Below, piece by piece: positions 10,659 to 18,315 of a stretch of DNA of 64,000 nt (positions are counted from its first letter, which is position 1; the number at the start of each line of letters is the position of its first letter). The DNA is from Pseudomonadota bacterium (GTDB lineage Bacteria; Pseudomonadota; Gammaproteobacteria; Xanthomonadales; Rhodanobacteraceae), in NCBI GenBank assembly GCA_029561145.1, contig JAKQJM010000034.1, positions 37,033-101,032 on the forward strand, written 5' to 3'. The position numbers and the translations under genes are program-made. The notes below the pieces were generated by a model that made no database searches, was not told where the DNA came from, and worked only from the letters and a program-made list of their open reading frames with translations.

Positions 10659-10734
10659 GCGGGAATAGCTCAGTTGGTAGAGCGCAACCTTGCCAAGGTT
10701 GAGGTCGCGAGTTCGAGCCTCGTTTCCCGCTCCA
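10659..10734 (+). tRNA. tRNA-Gly (anticodon GCC)
   Basis: GCGGGAATAGCTCAGTTGG...TTGCCAA...GTTCGAGCC...TTCCCGCTCCA; complete cloverleaf with encoded CCA. Confidence 0.96.
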
Positions 10735-10813: not shown

Positions 10814-10844
10814 AAACCTCGGCGACCCCGGGGTTTTGTTTTTT
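10814..10844 (+). terminator. Putative intrinsic terminator between tRNA-Gly and tRNA-Cys
   Basis: aaacctcgg-cgacc-ccggggttt (9-bp stem with one G-U) followed by tgtttttt. Confidence 0.5.
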
Positions 10845-10875
10845 GATGACGACGCAACCCGGTCGCCATCCCACC

Positions 10876-10949
10876 GGCCTGGTGGCAGAGTGGTCATGCA
10901 GCGGCCTGCAAAGCCGCGTACGCCGGTTCGATTCCGACCCAGGCCTCCA
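10876..10949 (+). tRNA. tRNA-Cys (anticodon GCA)
   Basis: GGCCTGGTGGCAGAGTGGTCATGCAGCGGCCTGCAAAGCCGC...GGTTCGATTCC...CCAGGCCTCCA; intact acceptor stem GGCCTGG/CCAGGCC. Confidence 0.95.
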
Positions 10950-11011
10950 TCCCTTCCGCAATACCGCGAAACGCTGGTCGCTGACCGCGCCATCGGGCAT
11001 CCTGCGCGCTG

Positions 11012-11023
11012 GCCCGGATGGCG
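11012..11023 (+). pseudogene. 5' fragment of tRNA-Leu
   Basis: gcccggatggcg identical to the first 12 nt of the intact tRNA-Leu at 12092, then diverges. Confidence 0.7.
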
Positions 11024-11050
11024 CAATGAGCAATCCGCAATATCGTCGAA

Positions 11051-11086
11051 TTGCGCCGCTTTGGGGCGTACGGTAATATTCCGTAC
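11051..11086 (+). promoter_or_regulatory. Promoter/operator of DUF1778-GNAT toxin-antitoxin operon
   Basis: TTGCGC-17 bp-TAATAT with inverted repeat GTACGG-TAATATT-CCGTAC (11068..11086) over the -10. Confidence 0.6.
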
Positions 11087-11106
11087 AGAAGGAAAGGAGA
11101 TGAGCC

Positions 11107-11370
11107 ATGACGGCAGCCGCCCGACTCGACCTGCGCCTGAGCGCGACAGACAAGGACCGCATTGCCCGTGCCGCCGACCTGCGCGGTGTGCCGGTGTCTG
11201 CGTTCGTGCGCGATGCGATATTGCGTGAGGCAGAGAACGTGATGACGGCGGAACTGTCCGTTACGTTGTCTCCGGCAGAGTCGCGCCGTTTTCTCGCAGC
11301 GCTGGACAAGCCATTCAAGCCCAATGCAAAGCTGAAGAAGGCCATGGATCGCGGTCTGGTGGCGCGCTGA
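11107..11370 (+). CDS. DUF1778-type (RHH) antitoxin
   Basis: RLDLRLSATDKDRIARAADLRGVPVSAFVRDAILREAENV; adjacent to GNAT toxin; aaggaaaggagatgagcc RBS. Confidence 0.85.
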   Translation: MTAAARLDLRLSATDKDRIARAADLRGVPVSAFVRDAILREAENVMTAELSVTLSPAESRRFLAALDKPFKPNAKLKKAMDRGLVAR

Positions 11371-11373
11371 GCC

Positions 11374-11862
11374 GTGCTGGTCATATGCCGGCTGGATGGC
11401 CGGCTCCACGATCGTGAAGGCTTCGATTGTGGCGAGCCTTCGCTGAACCATTATCTGCACACGCTCGCCACCCAGCATCTTCGCACCGGCATTGCCGCCA
11501 CCCACGTACTGGCCGATGACAAAGCACCCTCTTGCATCTTCGGCTACTACTCGATGGCCGCCGCCCAGATCTCATTGGACGAACTTTCGGTTTCTGACCG
11601 GCGTCGCTTGCCGCGTTATCCGGTTCCCGCCGCACGACTCGCCCGGCTTGCCGTGTCGGTGCAACAGCAAGGTCACGGCCTGGGCGAGGCCCTGCTCCAG
11701 GACGCGGTAACGCGTTGCCTCAACCTGCGCGAGGAGCTCGGCATCCATGCTCTGCTGGTGGACGCGCTGAATGAACGCGCCGCAAGGTTCTACCGCCAAT
11801 ACGGATTCCGCAGTTGCGCAACCAGCGCCATGACGCTGTATCTGCCACTCGGCCGCGGCTGA
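11374..11862 (+). CDS. GNAT-family toxin (TacT/AtaT-like)
   Basis: GNAT motif (RLARLAVSVQQQGHGLGEALLQDAV), ERAARFYRQYGF; GTG start 3 nt after antitoxin stop. Confidence 0.85.
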   Translation: MLVICRLDGRLHDREGFDCGEPSLNHYLHTLATQHLRTGIAATHVLADDKAPSCIFGYYSMAAAQISLDELSVSDRRRLPRYPVPAARLARLAVSVQQQGHGLGEALLQDAVTRCLNLREELGIHALLVDALNERAARFYRQYGFRSCATSAMTLYLPLGRG

Positions 11863-11946
11863 ATGGGCTGTGTATTGTCGAGAAGTACGCGGTAGCCAGG
11901 ATGCAAGAGTTGTCGCACCAGACTTGATGATGATGCTTTGAGCGCT

Positions 11947-12103
11947 CCATCCCGCCGGCCTGGCGGCAGTGTGGTCATGCAGCGGCCTGCAAAGCCGCGT
12001 ACGCCGGTTCGATTCCGACCCAGCCTCCATCCCTTCCGCAATACCGCGAAACGCTGGTCGCTGACCGCGCCATCGGGCATCCTGCGCGCTGGCCCGGATG
12101 GCG
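11947..12103 (+). repeat. Direct repeat copy 2 (degenerate tRNA-Cys, spacer, 5' end of intact tRNA-Leu)
   Basis: 157 bp matching 10866..11023 with a few substitutions and a 1-nt deletion. Confidence 0.9.
11957..12029 (+). pseudogene. Degenerate tRNA-Cys copy
   Basis: Same anticodon arm as 10876 but ggtggcagag->ggcggcagtg and one G deleted in the 3' acceptor (ccaggcctcca->ccagcctcca). Confidence 0.75.
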
Positions 12104-12178
12104 AAACTGGTATACGCAAGGGACTTAAAATCCCTCGGCCGCAAGGCCATGCGGGTTCGACCCCCGCTCCGGGCACCA
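12092..12178 (+). tRNA. tRNA-Leu (anticodon TAA)
   Basis: GCCCGGATGGCGAAACTGGTATACGCAAGGGACTTAAAATCCCTCGGCCGCAAGGCCATGCGGGTTCGACCCCCGCTCCGGGCACCA; class II tRNA with variable arm and CCA. Confidence 0.96.
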
Positions 12179-12180
12179 AT
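12126..12180 (+). repeat. attL-like direct repeat (3' part of tRNA-Leu from anticodon loop)
   Basis: taaaatccctcggccgcaaggcc...gggcaccaat, 53/55 identical to 17641..17695. Confidence 0.85.
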
Positions 12181-12296
12181 AAAACCCTGGTGTTTCGTCG
12201 AAGCATCGACTGCAGCCTCCTATGCCGACGACCGGCCTACCTGAATGGGATGCCCGGAGGCTACTGAGAAGCACGTCTGCTTGGGCGCGCACTGTG

Positions 12297-12336
12297 TTGC
12301 CACAGAACCGCTCACTCAGTAGTATTGAATCATACT
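12297..12336 (+). promoter_or_regulatory. Promoter/operator of parDE-like operon
   Basis: TTGCCA-17 bp-TAGTAT with inverted repeat AGTAT-tgaatc-ATACT (12321..12336) overlapping the -10. Confidence 0.55.
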
Positions 12337-12353
12337 GATACGGAGGCTTCGCC

Positions 12354-12638
12354 ATGCGTTCCACCCAACAATTCAGCATCACCCTGCCACACGAGTTGGC
12401 GGACGCGGTGAAAGCCAAAGTGGCCGGCGGCGAGTACGCGACCGAAAGCGAAGTGATCCGCGAAGGCTTGCGCGCGTTGATGGCCAAGGATCGCGCCGTC
12501 GAGGCGTGGTTGCGCGAGCAGGTTGTCCCTGCGGCGTTGGAATTGGAGGCCAATCCGTCGAGGGCGCTGACGCCAGCGCAGGTTCGCGCGCACTTGGCGC
12601 AGCGGCGACAGGCGCGCGATCGCGCGGGCAAAGCGTGA
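12354..12638 (+). CDS. ParD-like antitoxin
   Basis: QQFSITLPHELADAVKAKVAGGEYATESEVIREGLRAL: RHH ParD family; followed by ParE. Confidence 0.88.
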   Translation: MRSTQQFSITLPHELADAVKAKVAGGEYATESEVIREGLRALMAKDRAVEAWLREQVVPAALELEANPSRALTPAQVRAHLAQRRQARDRAGKA

Positions 12639-12955
12639 GCTACACGGTTCACTTTGTACCGGAAGCCCAAGACCAGCTCGATGCCATCGAAGATTACATC
12701 GCACTCGCCAGCGGACATCCCGGCACGGCGGCGAATTTCGTCGATGGCATCGTGGCCTACTGCGAGAGCTTCGAGACCTTCCCCGAGCGCGGTACGCGGC
12801 GCGACGACTTGTTGCCCGGTCTGCGGATGACAAGCTATCGCAAGAGCACCATGCTCGCGTTCCGGGTAGACACTGACGCCCAAGTCATCGCCATCATCGG
12901 CGTGTTCCACGGCGGGCAAGACTACGAAGCCGCCATGAGCGAGCCGGAACAGTGA
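12635..12955 (+). CDS. ParE/RelE-superfamily toxin
   Basis: SYTVHFVPEAQDQLDAIEDYIAL...FPERGTRRDDLLPGLRMTSYRKSTMLAFRVD...IIGVFHGGQDYE; GTG start overlaps parD stop. Confidence 0.87.
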   Translation: MSYTVHFVPEAQDQLDAIEDYIALASGHPGTAANFVDGIVAYCESFETFPERGTRRDDLLPGLRMTSYRKSTMLAFRVDTDAQVIAIIGVFHGGQDYEAAMSEPEQ

Positions 12956-13071
12956 ATTGGAAACGTGCCGTTTGGCATCGACGTGTACGGGCCAGCGGGC
13001 CTCGCTCGGCAAGACTGGGGGGAATGACTCTTGGAAACTGATCCGTACCGTCTGACAAGGATCGTCCTCGC

Positions 13072-14784
13072 ATGCCTGTATTGAACTGGATCGGCAAGGA
13101 TGCCGTAGCCCGACACGATGCCGAAGTTCCGTTTCGCCTGCTGCATGACGTGCCGGAGTTGGCCTGCGGCGATGCCGACAGCGGCAACCTGATCGTGGAA
13201 GGCGACAACCTGCTGGCGCTCAAGGCGCTGTTGCCGCACTACGGCGGCCAGGTGAAGTGCATCTACATCGACCCGCCGTACAACACCGGGCAGGATGAAC
13301 GCGACGACGAAGGCAAGCGCAACGGCTGGGTCTACAACGACAACGTGAACAGTCCGCAGATGCGCGAGTGGCTGGGCAAGGTGGTTGGTCCGGAGGCTGA
13401 AGACCTGACTCGCCACGACAAGTGGCTGTGCATGATGTACCCACGCCTGAAGCTGTTGAAGCGGTTTCTGCGGGACGACGGAGTGATCTTTGCCAGCATC
13501 GACGATATCGAACTGGCCAGCCTGCGTCTGCTGTTCGACGAGATTTTCGGCGTCGTCAATCGCGTGGGAACCATCGTCTGGAAGAACGCCACGGACAACA
13601 ACCCCACGCAGATCGCCAGTGAGCACGAGTACGTGCTGTGCTACGCGCGCGACAAGAGCAAGCTTCCGAAGGAGTGGAAATCCACCAGCCTCGCGGTCAA
13701 GACGAAGTTGCTCGACATGGGTGAGCAGTTCGTCCGCGACCACGCTGACCAGGAACAGCGGCAGGTCGCGTACACGAAGTGGTTTCGGAAGAACAAGGAC
13801 CAACTCTGGCCGTTCGACAGATACAAATTCATCGATGAAGATGGCGTTTATACCGGCAGCCAAAGCGTGCACAACCCAGGTAAGGAAGGCTATCGCTACG
13901 ACGTGATCCATCCAACGACGGGCCAGCCCTGTCAGCAGCCGATGATGGGTTACCGCTTCCCCGAGGAAACCATGCGCCGCCTGCTCGACGAGGGACGCAT
14001 CCTGTTCGGCGAGAACGAAACCAAGCTGATCGAACTGAAGGTGTACGCCAAGGACTATCGCGCCAAGCTTTCCAGCTTGTTCGAACTGGATGGGCGCATC
14101 GGTACCAACGAGATCAAGGCGATCTTCCCCGAGAGCAAGCGTCCGTTCGACTTTCCCAAACCGATTGAGCTGATCGAGGAGCTATTGAGCTTCACCACCA
14201 GCGACGACGACATCGTGATGGACTCGTTTGCTGGGTCGGGCACCACGGGCCAAGCGGTGCTTTCGCTGAACAAGGCAGATGGTCAGCGTCGGCGTTTCGT
14301 ACTGACGGAAATGAAATCGAGCATCGCGCGCGAGATCACCGCCGAGCGCGTGCGCCGCGTTTCCGAAGGCTACTCGCGAGGGCGTGCGCGCATCCCCGGC
14401 CTCGGCGGCGGTTTCCACTACGCCACCGTGGGCAAGTCGCTGTTCGCTGCCAACGGGCATATCAATCCCGAAGTGACCTTCGCCGAGATGGCGCGCTTCG
14501 TGTGGTTCATGGAGACGGGCACGCCGCTGGCATCGAAGCGACCTTCGTCGCCCTTGCTTGGGGTGCATGAAGGTCGTGCGGTGTACCTGCTGTACAACGG
14601 CATCCTCAAGGACAAGTCCACCGGTGGCGGCAATACCTTGACGTCGCCGTTGCTGGCCGAGTTGCCGCCGCACGAGGGGCCGAAGACGGTCTATGGCACG
14701 CGCTGCCTGATCCGCCCGGAGCGCCTGCGCGGTTTGCGGCTTGCGTTCAAGCAGTTGCCATACGAACTGAAGGTGGCGCGATGA
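13072..14784 (+). CDS. Type III restriction-modification methyltransferase (Mod), beta-class
   Basis: CIYIDPPYNTGQDERDDEG (DPPY) N-terminal and DSFAGSGTTGQAVLSLN (FxGxG) C-terminal; coupled to Res. Confidence 0.92.
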   Translation: MPVLNWIGKDAVARHDAEVPFRLLHDVPELACGDADSGNLIVEGDNLLALKALLPHYGGQVKCIYIDPPYNTGQDERDDEGKRNGWVYNDNVNSPQMREWLGKVVGPEAEDLTRHDKWLCMMYPRLKLLKRFLRDDGVIFASIDDIELASLRLLFDEIFGVVNRVGTIVWKNATDNNPTQIASEHEYVLCYARDKSKLPKEWKSTSLAVKTKLLDMGEQFVRDHADQEQRQVAYTKWFRKNKDQLWPFDRYKFIDEDGVYTGSQSVHNPGKEGYRYDVIHPTTGQPCQQPMMGYRFPEETMRRLLDEGRILFGENETKLIELKVYAKDYRAKLSSLFELDGRIGTNEIKAIFPESKRPFDFPKPIELIEELLSFTTSDDDIVMDSFAGSGTTGQAVLSLNKADGQRRRFVLTEMKSSIAREITAERVRRVSEGYSRGRARIPGLGGGFHYATVGKSLFAANGHINPEVTFAEMARFVWFMETGTPLASKRPSSPLLGVHEGRAVYLLYNGILKDKSTGGGNTLTSPLLAELPPHEGPKTVYGTRCLIRPERLRGLRLAFKQLPYELKVAR

Positions 14785-17441
14785 GTCTCGACCACACCTG
14801 CCCCGAGAACGCGCGCCTGAAGGTTTATCAGTGCCAGGCGCTGGATGCGTTCGAGGCCTTTTTGCGTCGTTATCGCGACGACGGCGCGATACGAGCCTAC
14901 GAGGCCTGCGCGCGTGCGCATTTCGGATTGGGTGTGCCCTATCGCATGCCGCAGCCGTTCGCGGAAGGCGACATTCCTTGCGTCTGCCTGCGTATCCCCA
15001 CCGGCGGTGGCAAGACGCTGATGGCGGGCCACGCGATTCGCCGCGTCAACGATGCACTGCTGGGCGTGGAGTATTCGCTCACCGTGTGGCTGGTGCCGAC
15101 CGACGCCATCCGTGAACAGACGCTGCGTGCGTTGAAGACCACCGGCAACCTGCTGCACGATTCGTTGAGTGAAAAGCTTGGTTTGTTCAATGTGCTGACG
15201 CTGGACGAAGCGCTGAACCTGCAACCCGCCACACTCGACAGCGCCAACGTCATCGTCGTGGCGACCATGCAGTCATTCAAGCAGGAGGACACCGGGCGTT
15301 TGGCGGTGTACAAGCAGAATGGCCAGTTGATGGCGAATTTCAGCAGCATGCCTGGCGCCGAAGCGGGCGGTCACTCCCTGGTGGATCTGCTGCGTCAGCG
15401 CCGTCCGTTCGTAATCGTGGACGAGGCGCACAATCAGGGCACGCAACTCGCGTTCGATACCTTGGCGCGGCTTGACCCCTGTGCCGTGCTGGAACTGACC
15501 GCCACGCCGGATCGCAGCTACCAGCCGTCCAACGTGCTGTTCTCGGTATCGGCAGCGACCTTGCAGGCCGAGGACATGATCAAGTTGCCGGTGGAGCTGG
15601 CTGCACATGGCTCATGGCAGGTGACATTGCGCGAAGCGATCAATTGCCTGGAAGGCTTGCAGACCGAGGCCGACGCCGAGCAAGCCGCGACCGGTGAATA
15701 CCTGCGCCCGATCATGCTGCTGCAGGCCGAGCGGCGCAGCGAAGGACAGGAGACCTTCACTGCCGAGCGGGTGAAACAGGCACTGATCGACGATTTCAAT
15801 GTGCCGGGCAAGGCCATCGCTATTTCTACCGGCACGCTGGACGAGTTGGGCGATACCGACGTTTCCACACCGGATTGCCCGCTGCGCTTCATCATTACCG
15901 TGGACAAACTGCGCGAGGGTTGGGATTGCCCGTTTGCTTACGTGCTGGTGAGCTTTCGTGCCACCAGTACCAGCACGGCGCTGGAACAGATTCTTGGTCG
16001 CGTGCTGCGCATGCCGCGCGCCCAGCGCAAGCAACGTGAAGCCTTGAACAAGGCCTATGCGTTCGCGGTATCGCCACGCATCGTGGAAGTGGCCGAAGCC
16101 CTGCGCGATGGCCTCGTGCATGCCGGCTTCGAGCGCCAGGACGTGAACGATTTGATTCGCGCGGAGCACGGCGAACAAGGCACGAACGACCTGCTGCGGC
16201 AGCGCGACTGCGTGACCGTGCCGCTGCCGCAGGTGGACGACCAGGTGGAGTTGCCTGACCTCTCCGCATTGCCGGAGGCCACGCGCAAGCGCTTCGAGAA
16301 AACGCTGGAAGTGTCACCCGAGACCGGCAGCATGACCTTGCGAGGCGATTGGAGCCGCCCCGGTGACCAGAAGGCGCTGAAGGAAGCATTCCAGTCGCCA
16401 CAAGCCGTCCAGATAGTCGGGCAGGCCATTGCCCTGCTTGCCGCACCGGTGCCCTGGCAGCCCACGCCATCGGAGCGCGGCGAGAGCTTTGCGATACCAA
16501 TGCTGGCGTGGACACAGGGCGATTTGCTGCTGGAGGCGGGTGATGCGCCGCTGCTTGAGTCGGCATGGAACCCCAAGGATGCTTCCGTGGAGCTTCCTGA
16601 TGCGGCTTTTCCGAAGGACCTGGAAGCTGTACAGCGCGCCCGCTTGGCAATCACCGACGCAGGCAAGCTGAGTTACGACACCGGCGAAAAGCTGGATGTT
16701 CAAATGCACTTGTTCGTGCGCGAGCCGGCCAGCGACGAAAGCCTGTTGTGGTGGCTGGAACGACAGTTGCGCGATGACGGCATGATGCCGGAAGACTTGG
16801 CCGCATGGTTGTCGGGCGCACTGGGCTATCTCAAATCGCAGCGCGGCTTTACCACGGACGAGTTGGCATACCGCAAGTTCCGCTTGCGCGAGGCGCTGGC
16901 GGAACACCTGAAGAAGGCCCGGCGCAGTGCTGCCCAACAGGGATTCTTCGCCTTGTTGGGTGACGAGCCACAACTGAGCGCAGATGATCGTCTGCAGCGG
17001 GTTTTCAGCACGGGCCGCTACGCCTGGGACTCTCAATACAACGGTTTCGTCACCCTCAACCGGCACTTCTTTCCGCAGATCGGCAACCTCAAGTCCTCGG
17101 GCGAAGAGTTCAAGTGCGCCGAGTTCATTGCCAACGCGATGGACGGCGTTCGCGACTGGATTCGCAACGTGGAGCGCAAGCCGGGATCGTTCTCGCTGCC
17201 CACGTCGAGCGATCGTTTCTATCCCGACTTCGTGATACGGCTGGCCAACGGTGGAATCATCGCGGCGGAGTACAAGGGCGACCACCTTGCCAGCGGCAAG
17301 GACAGCGACGAAAAGAAACGGATCGGTGAGCTGTGGGAACGTCGTAGCGGTGGACGTTGCGCGTTCGCGTGGGTGGAGTTGCAGAACTGGGTGACACTGA
17401 AAGAGGCTGCCTTGCGCTGCAAAGGTTCACCCGCTCACTGA
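14781..17441 (+). CDS. Type III restriction endonuclease (Res), DEAD/DEAH helicase-nuclease
   Basis: Walker A TGGGKTLMAGH, VIVDEAHN, C-terminal PDFVIRLANGGIIAAEYKGD nuclease-like motif; ATGA overlap with mod. Confidence 0.92.
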   Translation: MSLDHTCPENARLKVYQCQALDAFEAFLRRYRDDGAIRAYEACARAHFGLGVPYRMPQPFAEGDIPCVCLRIPTGGGKTLMAGHAIRRVNDALLGVEYSLTVWLVPTDAIREQTLRALKTTGNLLHDSLSEKLGLFNVLTLDEALNLQPATLDSANVIVVATMQSFKQEDTGRLAVYKQNGQLMANFSSMPGAEAGGHSLVDLLRQRRPFVIVDEAHNQGTQLAFDTLARLDPCAVLELTATPDRSYQPSNVLFSVSAATLQAEDMIKLPVELAAHGSWQVTLREAINCLEGLQTEADAEQAATGEYLRPIMLLQAERRSEGQETFTAERVKQALIDDFNVPGKAIAISTGTLDELGDTDVSTPDCPLRFIITVDKLREGWDCPFAYVLVSFRATSTSTALEQILGRVLRMPRAQRKQREALNKAYAFAVSPRIVEVAEALRDGLVHAGFERQDVNDLIRAEHGEQGTNDLLRQRDCVTVPLPQVDDQVELPDLSALPEATRKRFEKTLEVSPETGSMTLRGDWSRPGDQKALKEAFQSPQAVQIVGQAIALLAAPVPWQPTPSERGESFAIPMLAWTQGDLLLEAGDAPLLESAWNPKDASVELPDAAFPKDLEAVQRARLAITDAGKLSYDTGEKLDVQMHLFVREPASDESLLWWLERQLRDDGMMPEDLAAWLSGALGYLKSQRGFTTDELAYRKFRLREALAEHLKKARRSAAQQGFFALLGDEPQLSADDRLQRVFSTGRYAWDSQYNGFVTLNRHFFPQIGNLKSSGEEFKCAEFIANAMDGVRDWIRNVERKPGSFSLPTSSDRFYPDFVIRLANGGIIAAEYKGDHLASGKDSDEKKRIGELWERRSGGRCAFAWVELQNWVTLKEAALRCKGSPAH

Positions 17442-17640
17442 GTGTCGGCATGGATGCTTGCTGCCAGACGTGTCGACAGCTTCGGGCGCATGGCGGAGGC
17501 GTAACAGCGGTATACAGAGGTCAGCTAGAGCACCTTTCGCAAAACTTCGCTGAGCTGCTGATAGTAGAATTGTCTTGTCTTCTTCAAGTGTCGCCAGATT
17601 ATGCAAGGCAATCAGTAAATTGTTCATTTTAAGACAAACG

Positions 17641-17695
17641 TAAAATCTTTCGGCCGCAAGGCCATGCGGGTTCGACCCCCGCTCCGGGCACCAAT
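17641..17695 (+). repeat. attR-like direct repeat / 3' fragment of tRNA-Leu
   Basis: taaaatctttcggccgcaaggccatgcgggttcgacccccgctccgggcaccaat; no 5' half upstream; 53/55 match to 12126..12180. Confidence 0.85.
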
Positions 17696-18054: not shown

Positions 18055-18315
18055 ATGAGTTGGAGCCGAAATGCATCCGATTTTTCGCGTATTGGATTGA
18101 GCGCACTGGAGGGGGCCAATGCGATCGGCGCGAATGACCTGATTCCTCTCGATCAGCCGATGAGCGAGGAACAGCTCAGGCAGCGGGCGAAGCTCATCGG
18201 GACCATTCTCGAGATGCGCAAGCGCGTGCAGACGCTTCGTGATCGCGCGGATGCACTGAACGGAGCGCTCGAATCGTTCAGGGATCGCCAGGATCAAATC
18301 CAGCGTCGCGCCTGA
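18055..18315 (+). CDS. Hypothetical coiled-coil protein
   Basis: MSWSRNASDFSRIGLSALEGANAIGANDLIPLDQPMSEEQLRQRAKLIGTILEMRKRVQTLRDRADAL; RBS-like gggag upstream; start trimmed from ORF 17704. Confidence 0.45.
   Translation: MSWSRNASDFSRIGLSALEGANAIGANDLIPLDQPMSEEQLRQRAKLIGTILEMRKRVQTLRDRADALNGALESFRDRQDQIQRRA

Follow-up and report, generated by a model that had tools for sequence, protein, structure and literature searches.

Islands that lack an integrase and are bounded by repeats of a tRNA gene are known as a kind. Cis-mobilizable elements (CIMEs) retain both attL and attR, while integration and transfer genes are absent (PMC5704250). Likewise, fifteen ssrA islands of Dehalococcoides, arranged in tandem and delimited by direct repeats of the tRNA-like gene, are devoid of an integration module and were proposed to be CIMEs (PMC3146451). 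Phage-defence islands that were recently described at the tmRNA gene of Pseudomonas keep their own integrase, IntY (PMC12595487). In tRNA-dependent lysogeny, a short core within a tRNA gene is used for integration, the tRNA is not rebuilt and the element supplies a replacement tRNA (PMC10865867).

Here we analyzed a window of 64,000 nucleotides (bases 37033-101032 of contig 12, C12, of a 3.6-Mb draft genome comprising 149 contigs), which contains a new instance of the integrase-less kind. The segment 12126-17695 is probably a small island that entered via site-specific recombination at tRNA-Leu(UAA) and is now non-autonomous and CIME-like, located within an accretion hotspot. Like a CIME, it keeps attL and attR, lacks integration and transfer genes and occupies, next to further elements, the 3' end of a tRNA gene, but it differs in its very small size and in its cargo, ParDE plus a type III restriction-modification (RM) system. 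The match to the definition comprises its two structural features. No relict of an ICE or IME was seen; an accreted neighbor, the TacAT unit, is present. With the ssrA islands of Dehalococcoides it shares the missing integration module and the tRNA(-like) direct repeats as boundaries; those islands, however, employ a serine recombinase system, target ssrA and carry reductive dehalogenase cargo. The tmRNA islands resemble it in their direct repeats at a tRNA(-like) gene, their defence cargo and the lack of autonomous transfer, whereas they possess a tyrosine integrase of their own as well as AlpA, neither of which is found in the window island.

Boundaries and cargo of the island

The island and its boundaries comprise the following features:

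12092..12178, + strand: intact tRNA-Leu(TAA), the integration target, its 3' part forming attL (ARAGORN; Rfam tRNA 56.4 bits)
12126..12180, + strand: left att-like repeat within tRNA-Leu, tRNA nt 35-87 plus AT (repeat search, alignment)
12181..12353, no strand: left spacer (GC 0.57; no integrase relict)
12354..12638, + strand: ParD-type antitoxin (PF03693, E 8.7e-5; TIGR02606 under its cut-off)
12635..12955, + strand: ParE-type toxin (PF05016, E 4.7e-12; GTGA overlap with parD)
13072..14784, + strand: type III methyltransferase Mod (PADLOC MTase_III, E 6e-169; EcoP15I Mod, E 8e-128; DPPY and FAGSG motifs)
14781..17441, + strand: type III restriction subunit Res (PF04851, E 4e-13; PADLOC REase_III, E 6.5e-122; ATGA overlap with mod)
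17442..17640, no strand: right spacer, a possible attachment arm or relict (GC 0.49)
17641..17695, + strand: right att-like repeat (attR), without 5' half (53/55 against the 3' part of tRNA-Leu)

The stretch from the anticodon of tRNA-Leu(UAA) (nt 35) through CCA plus AT occurs a second time downstream, with 53 of 55 identities and at a spacing of 5,515 bp; the repeat search aligned 12123-12180 with 17638-17695 at 95% over 58 nt. Twenty shuffles of the 12 kb downstream delivered at best 30/55. Throughout the 3.6-Mb genome only two matches to tRNA-Leu(UAA) were detected, the gene itself and the copy at 17641-17695, next to which no 5' tRNA half was found. Thus ARAGORN, the repeat search and the shuffles bear out what the sequence-only reading had noticed, namely a 55-bp repeat that starts within an intact tRNA-Leu and recurs where the 5' half is missing. 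The second copy is slightly decayed: both mismatches replace C42C43 by TT, on the 3' side of the anticodon stem and beside the presumed core. When the flanks of the island were joined in silico, tRNA-Leu was restored (ARAGORN). As in other tRNA-integrated islands, an intact tRNA marks the near end and a direct repeat of its 3' part the far end, and the island is absent from the same site in relatives (see below).

Between the repeat copies, Pfam and PADLOC identified ParD, ParE, Mod and Res. An RHH antitoxin gene overlaps the gene of a ParE-fold toxin, as predicted for a ParDE type II toxin-antitoxin (TA) pair. Mod, by its DPPY/FxGxG motifs a putative N6 methyltransferase, adjoins Res, a predicted helicase plus nuclease with GGGKT, DEAH, TATP and PD-ExK-like motifs; with these motifs intact, a type III RM system is predicted. 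Apart from these genes there are only short spacers and no integrase (Pfam/PADLOC; spacer search at E<0.1), just as had been claimed at the outset. The right spacer is AT-richer than the window (GC 0.49 vs. a mean of 0.63). As evidence for an island we dismissed GC content, which is uninformative here (island 0.61, close to the window mean of 0.63). The notion of ParDE-RM as a fixed co-travelling unit was abandoned as well, since the examined relatives of Res have no adjoining ParDE and none is located at tRNA-Leu.

Absence of an integrase and of an evident helper

No homolog or relict of an integrase was detected at E<0.1 in the three island spacers and just outside attR, no phage or conjugation relict was found in the spacers, and contig C12 contains no PF00589 match. 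Autonomous islands carry an integrase gene inside the element; since there is none here, the island is filed as non-autonomous.

An integrase of tRNA-Leu specificity elsewhere in the genome, which the sequence-only reading had suggested to look for, is not evident. Among the integrases of this genome none with known tRNA-Leu(UAA) specificity was found, nor was the recombinase seen; compared to known tRNA-Leu integrases they are distant at best (~22–29% identity in alignments). We therefore rejected the resident enzymes, XerC/XerD-like and IntI-like proteins, as helper. One resident integrase lies beside tRNA-Asn, one beside tRNA-Thr and one close to a contig end. Two loci of this genome (G000), L033 and L035 on contigs C87 and C124, encode integrases that read like those of integrons (IntI-type). 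Given this distant relationship, no resident helper is evident and the present mobility of the island is doubtful. The two attR substitutions beside the core add to this doubt, and because of them the function of attR is uncertain.

The right spacer has no match among 232 family genomes and thus provides no independent att arm. Phage genomes with the tRNA-Leu half as attP were considered and discarded: the best matches were phage tRNA-Leu genes or unannotated stretches with no annotated integrase nearby. Viral contigs contained no exact match of the tRNA-Leu half.

The tRNA-Leu(UAA) site in relatives

The genus was compared by draft genomes, one per species. Among its ten other members Res is absent (0/10) and ParE was not found (0/10), and four of the ten, all of other species (G005, G007, G008, G010), possess tRNA-Leu without a downstream half. 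Hence the empty site that was to be sought in relatives does exist, e.g., in G005 and G010. The surroundings are shared as well: the left flank was found with tRNA-Gly (in the window at 10659..10734, + strand, part of the native left flank; ARAGORN) and tRNA-Cys in G003, G005 and G006, and the right-flank region at ~19.0–19.8 kb shares a contig with tRNA-Leu or its half in G003, G009 and G010. Read by eye from the sequences, we take the left-flank genes to be UvrC and PgsA and the right-flank gene to be TcdA/ThiF-like. A unit identical to that of the window was not found in any second genome.

Further to the right, 18055-18312 encodes an 86-aa protein of a small family present in 7 of 11 genus members and in four members of another genus, three copies being located near tRNA-Leu halves. 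As a hallmark of these elements the protein was dropped, given its paralogs elsewhere in the genus.

Employing the tRNA-Leu 3' half as query, we found second copies ~45–47 kb away in G049, G070, G093 and G173, at 15 kb in G061 and at 9.4 kb in G063, and also in G009, G001 and G003. Tyrosine integrase genes lie near a boundary in G049, G093, G070, G061 and G063, and the integrase-bearing elements at tRNA-Leu in the family span 9–47 kb. The halves begin in or next to the anticodon loop (nt 31 in G009 and G001, nt 33 in G003, nt 30 in G049, G070 and G093, nt 27 in G061, nt 28 in G063). Within the genus, G003 harbors an ICE-like element with TrbL and VirB8, whose tyrosine integrase is encoded ~0.2 kb from a tRNA-Leu half. 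Its insertion divides tRNA-Leu within the anticodon loop, the two parts overlapping by 9 nt (nt 33-41), and the two ends, which lie on different contigs, presumably belong to one element.

This ICE brings along a tRNA-Leu(UAA) of its own, into which a group I intron of 232 nt is inserted (L029:5383-5902 and L028:11538-12968). The tRNA-Leu(UAA) genes of G002 (L012:1234-1552) and G004 (L011:1238-1552) contain an intron of 228–232 nt after nt 35 that is ~85% identical to the ICE copy. With its short core, a tRNA that is not rebuilt and a replacement tRNA, the G003 ICE, not the window island, parallels tRNA-dependent lysogeny; it differs in being ICE-like rather than an actinophage and in the group I intron of the replacement tRNA.

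Judged by the aligned sequences, the anticodon-loop core is common to the window unit, the G003 ICE and the prophages. Such a core is what one would expect of tRNA-specific tyrosine integrases, which argues against chance or homologous recombination as the source of the 12126-17695 unit.

How the island came to lack an integrase is a separate matter. A larger integrase-bearing island or prophage may have entered tRNA-Leu, and a deletion then left the att sites and a few genes as an immobile remnant; alternatively, ParDE and RM later replaced the interior of such an element. Taken together, these two variants appear slightly favored to us. Decay of this type is the published origin of CIMEs (PMC5704250), elements of suitable kind are known from this very site in the family, and both the substitutions in attR and the lack of an evident helper fit to an immobile remnant. 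However, no remains of integrase, phage or conjugation genes are left in the spacers.

Small integrase-less segments in the genus

Other integrase-less cargo at the same site, which the sequence-only reading had anticipated, is indeed present in G009, G001 and G006. G009 comprises a 5.0-kb segment at tRNA-Leu encoding DUF4236 and DUF4468 proteins. G001 packs two complete tRNA-Leu genes, one fragment and one half into 3.6 kb, and the two complete copies flank a RelE/HTH pair (segment of 1.4–3.5 kb). In G006, a 3' fragment lies 0.8 kb downstream of tRNA-Leu, and the interval encodes a VapBC pair (PIN PF01850, AbrB/MazE PF04014). None of these three tRNA-Leu segments includes an integrase. The halves of G001 and G009 share a 113-bp upstream arm (84% identical) next to different cargo, again with an integrase in neither.

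In total, the short integrase-less state occurs in four genomes of one genus, three of which have a TA pair. When 68 tRNA-Leu loci were sampled, a repeat within 12 kb was detected only in G000, G001 and G009 and in none of the 60 loci from other genera, albeit by an ungapped scan that missed the G006 fragment found by BLAST and could miss similar ones elsewhere, and with a few loci shortened by contig ends. The opposite-strand control yielded no repeat. The less expected part of these results is the repeated occurrence of TA units at one tRNA pair within one genus.

This short integrase-less state of four genomes, two of which share an attR arm next to different cargo, is less simply explained by independent decay. 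It rather fits to a cassette that never had an integrase and was mobilized by enzymes from ICEs or prophages in the same cell that recognize the tRNA-Leu core, comparable to a minimal hitcher element with TA/RM cargo. The TA pair in three of these genomes, the conserved arm that G001 and G009 have while lacking an integrase, and the G003 ICE, which uses the same core with its own tyrosine integrase, agree with this scenario. Nevertheless, we regard it as possible but rather unlikely, as no known element has arms like those of the window unit, the integrases of this genome are only distant relatives of the tRNA-Leu enzymes and the identical unit has not turned up in a second genome. We tentatively favor loss of the integrase over a cassette lacking it from the start.

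The neighboring tRNA-Cys unit

The ParDE-RM island is not isolated but one unit of a tRNA-Cys/tRNA-Leu accretion hotspot. Directly upstream of it lies a TacAT unit (10843-12106), which the sequence-only reading had missed:

10843..11026, + strand: left copy of a ~184-nt repeat comprising tRNA-Cys, spacer and 15 nt of tRNA-Leu (repeat search)
10876..10949, + strand: tRNA-Cys copy 1 (ARAGORN; 58 bits)
11107..11370, + strand: TacA-like antitoxin, DUF1778 (PF08681, E 3.5e-20)
11374..11862, + strand: TacT-like GNAT toxin (PF13508, E 3.7e-9; named TacT from its place beside TacA)
11924..12106, + strand: right copy of the ~184-nt repeat (87% over the first 100 nt, 99% thereafter)
11957..12028, + strand: tRNA-Cys copy 2, degenerate, with an acceptor stem one base short (37.7 bits); ends the TacAT unit

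The ~184-nt repeat begins ~33 nt ahead of tRNA-Cys and includes the first 15 nt of tRNA-Leu, and TacA-TacT (11107-11862) is located between its copies. G009 contains a 14.7-kb prophage-like element with an integrase in tRNA-Cys (L306:363-15161), some genes of which read like phage terminase and capsid genes. It is bounded by a perfect repeat of 58 nt beginning at tRNA nt 17, roughly the position from which the window repeat becomes nearly identical. A 3' part of tRNA-Cys that matches it is also present in G001, where the upstream arm resembles that of G009; beside this tRNA-Cys remnant, two adjacent DUF2971 genes (L021 9736-11537, minus strand) match the PADLOC candidate PDC-S31. Since the window repeat does not stop at tRNA-Cys but runs far beyond it, site-specific entry and a Campbell-type duplication are equally likely for the TacAT unit.

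Could the ParDE-RM island have originated in the same way, by homologous or illegitimate recombination within repeated tRNA sequences, be it with incoming linear DNA of a relative that already had a tRNA-Leu half or through tandem duplication? The long, Campbell-like repeat of its neighbor, with a whole tRNA-Cys, spacer and 15 nt of tRNA-Leu, and the second complete tRNA-Leu copy of G001 speak for such events at this locus. However, the repeat of the 12126-17695 unit has one edge at the anticodon loop and the other 2 nt past CCA, like those of independent integrase-bearing sites; homologous recombination predicts no such edge. An origin by recombination alone is thus improbable for this island and less likely than either integrase loss or a cassette that never had an integrase.

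Proposed mechanism

We therefore return to site-specific entry at tRNA-Leu(UAA). This part of the sequence-only reading, an integrase-less site-specific island at the anticodon loop, stands; the choice that it had left between an enzyme supplied in trans and a lost integrase is not settled by our data. The attP of the element would have recombined with the tRNA-Leu(UAA) gene, with strand exchange in the anticodon loop. The element's own 3' half would thereby have rebuilt the tRNA (attL), and the displaced 3' half would have stayed behind as attR at 17641-17695. Core and relatives suggest a tRNA-type tyrosine integrase as the enzyme. In its present state, with neither integrase nor transfer gene, the island might be excised only by an integrase acting in trans or jointly with a neighboring element. 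Since loss of ParDE or of the type III RM system could each harm the cells, the island may persist without mobility. The enzyme class, the order of events, this stabilization and any helper are what we infer.

Significance

One might speculate further that in this genus tRNA-Leu(UAA) and tRNA-Cys serve as a slot for integrase-free micro-cassettes of 0.8–5.5 kb, often with one TA pair, which are moved in trans by resident ICE or prophage integrases using the same tRNA cores. We consider this quite doubtful; if true, tRNA genes would take an integron-like role without a dedicated integrase. The island itself offers a small natural system for two questions: do tRNA islands without an integrase travel on enzymes borrowed from other elements, or are they dead remnants, and are such remnants retained owing to their TA or restriction genes? 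Both can be approached by comparison within the genus, where several units lacking an integrase occur alongside an ICE and prophages whose integrases target the same or the neighboring tRNA gene.
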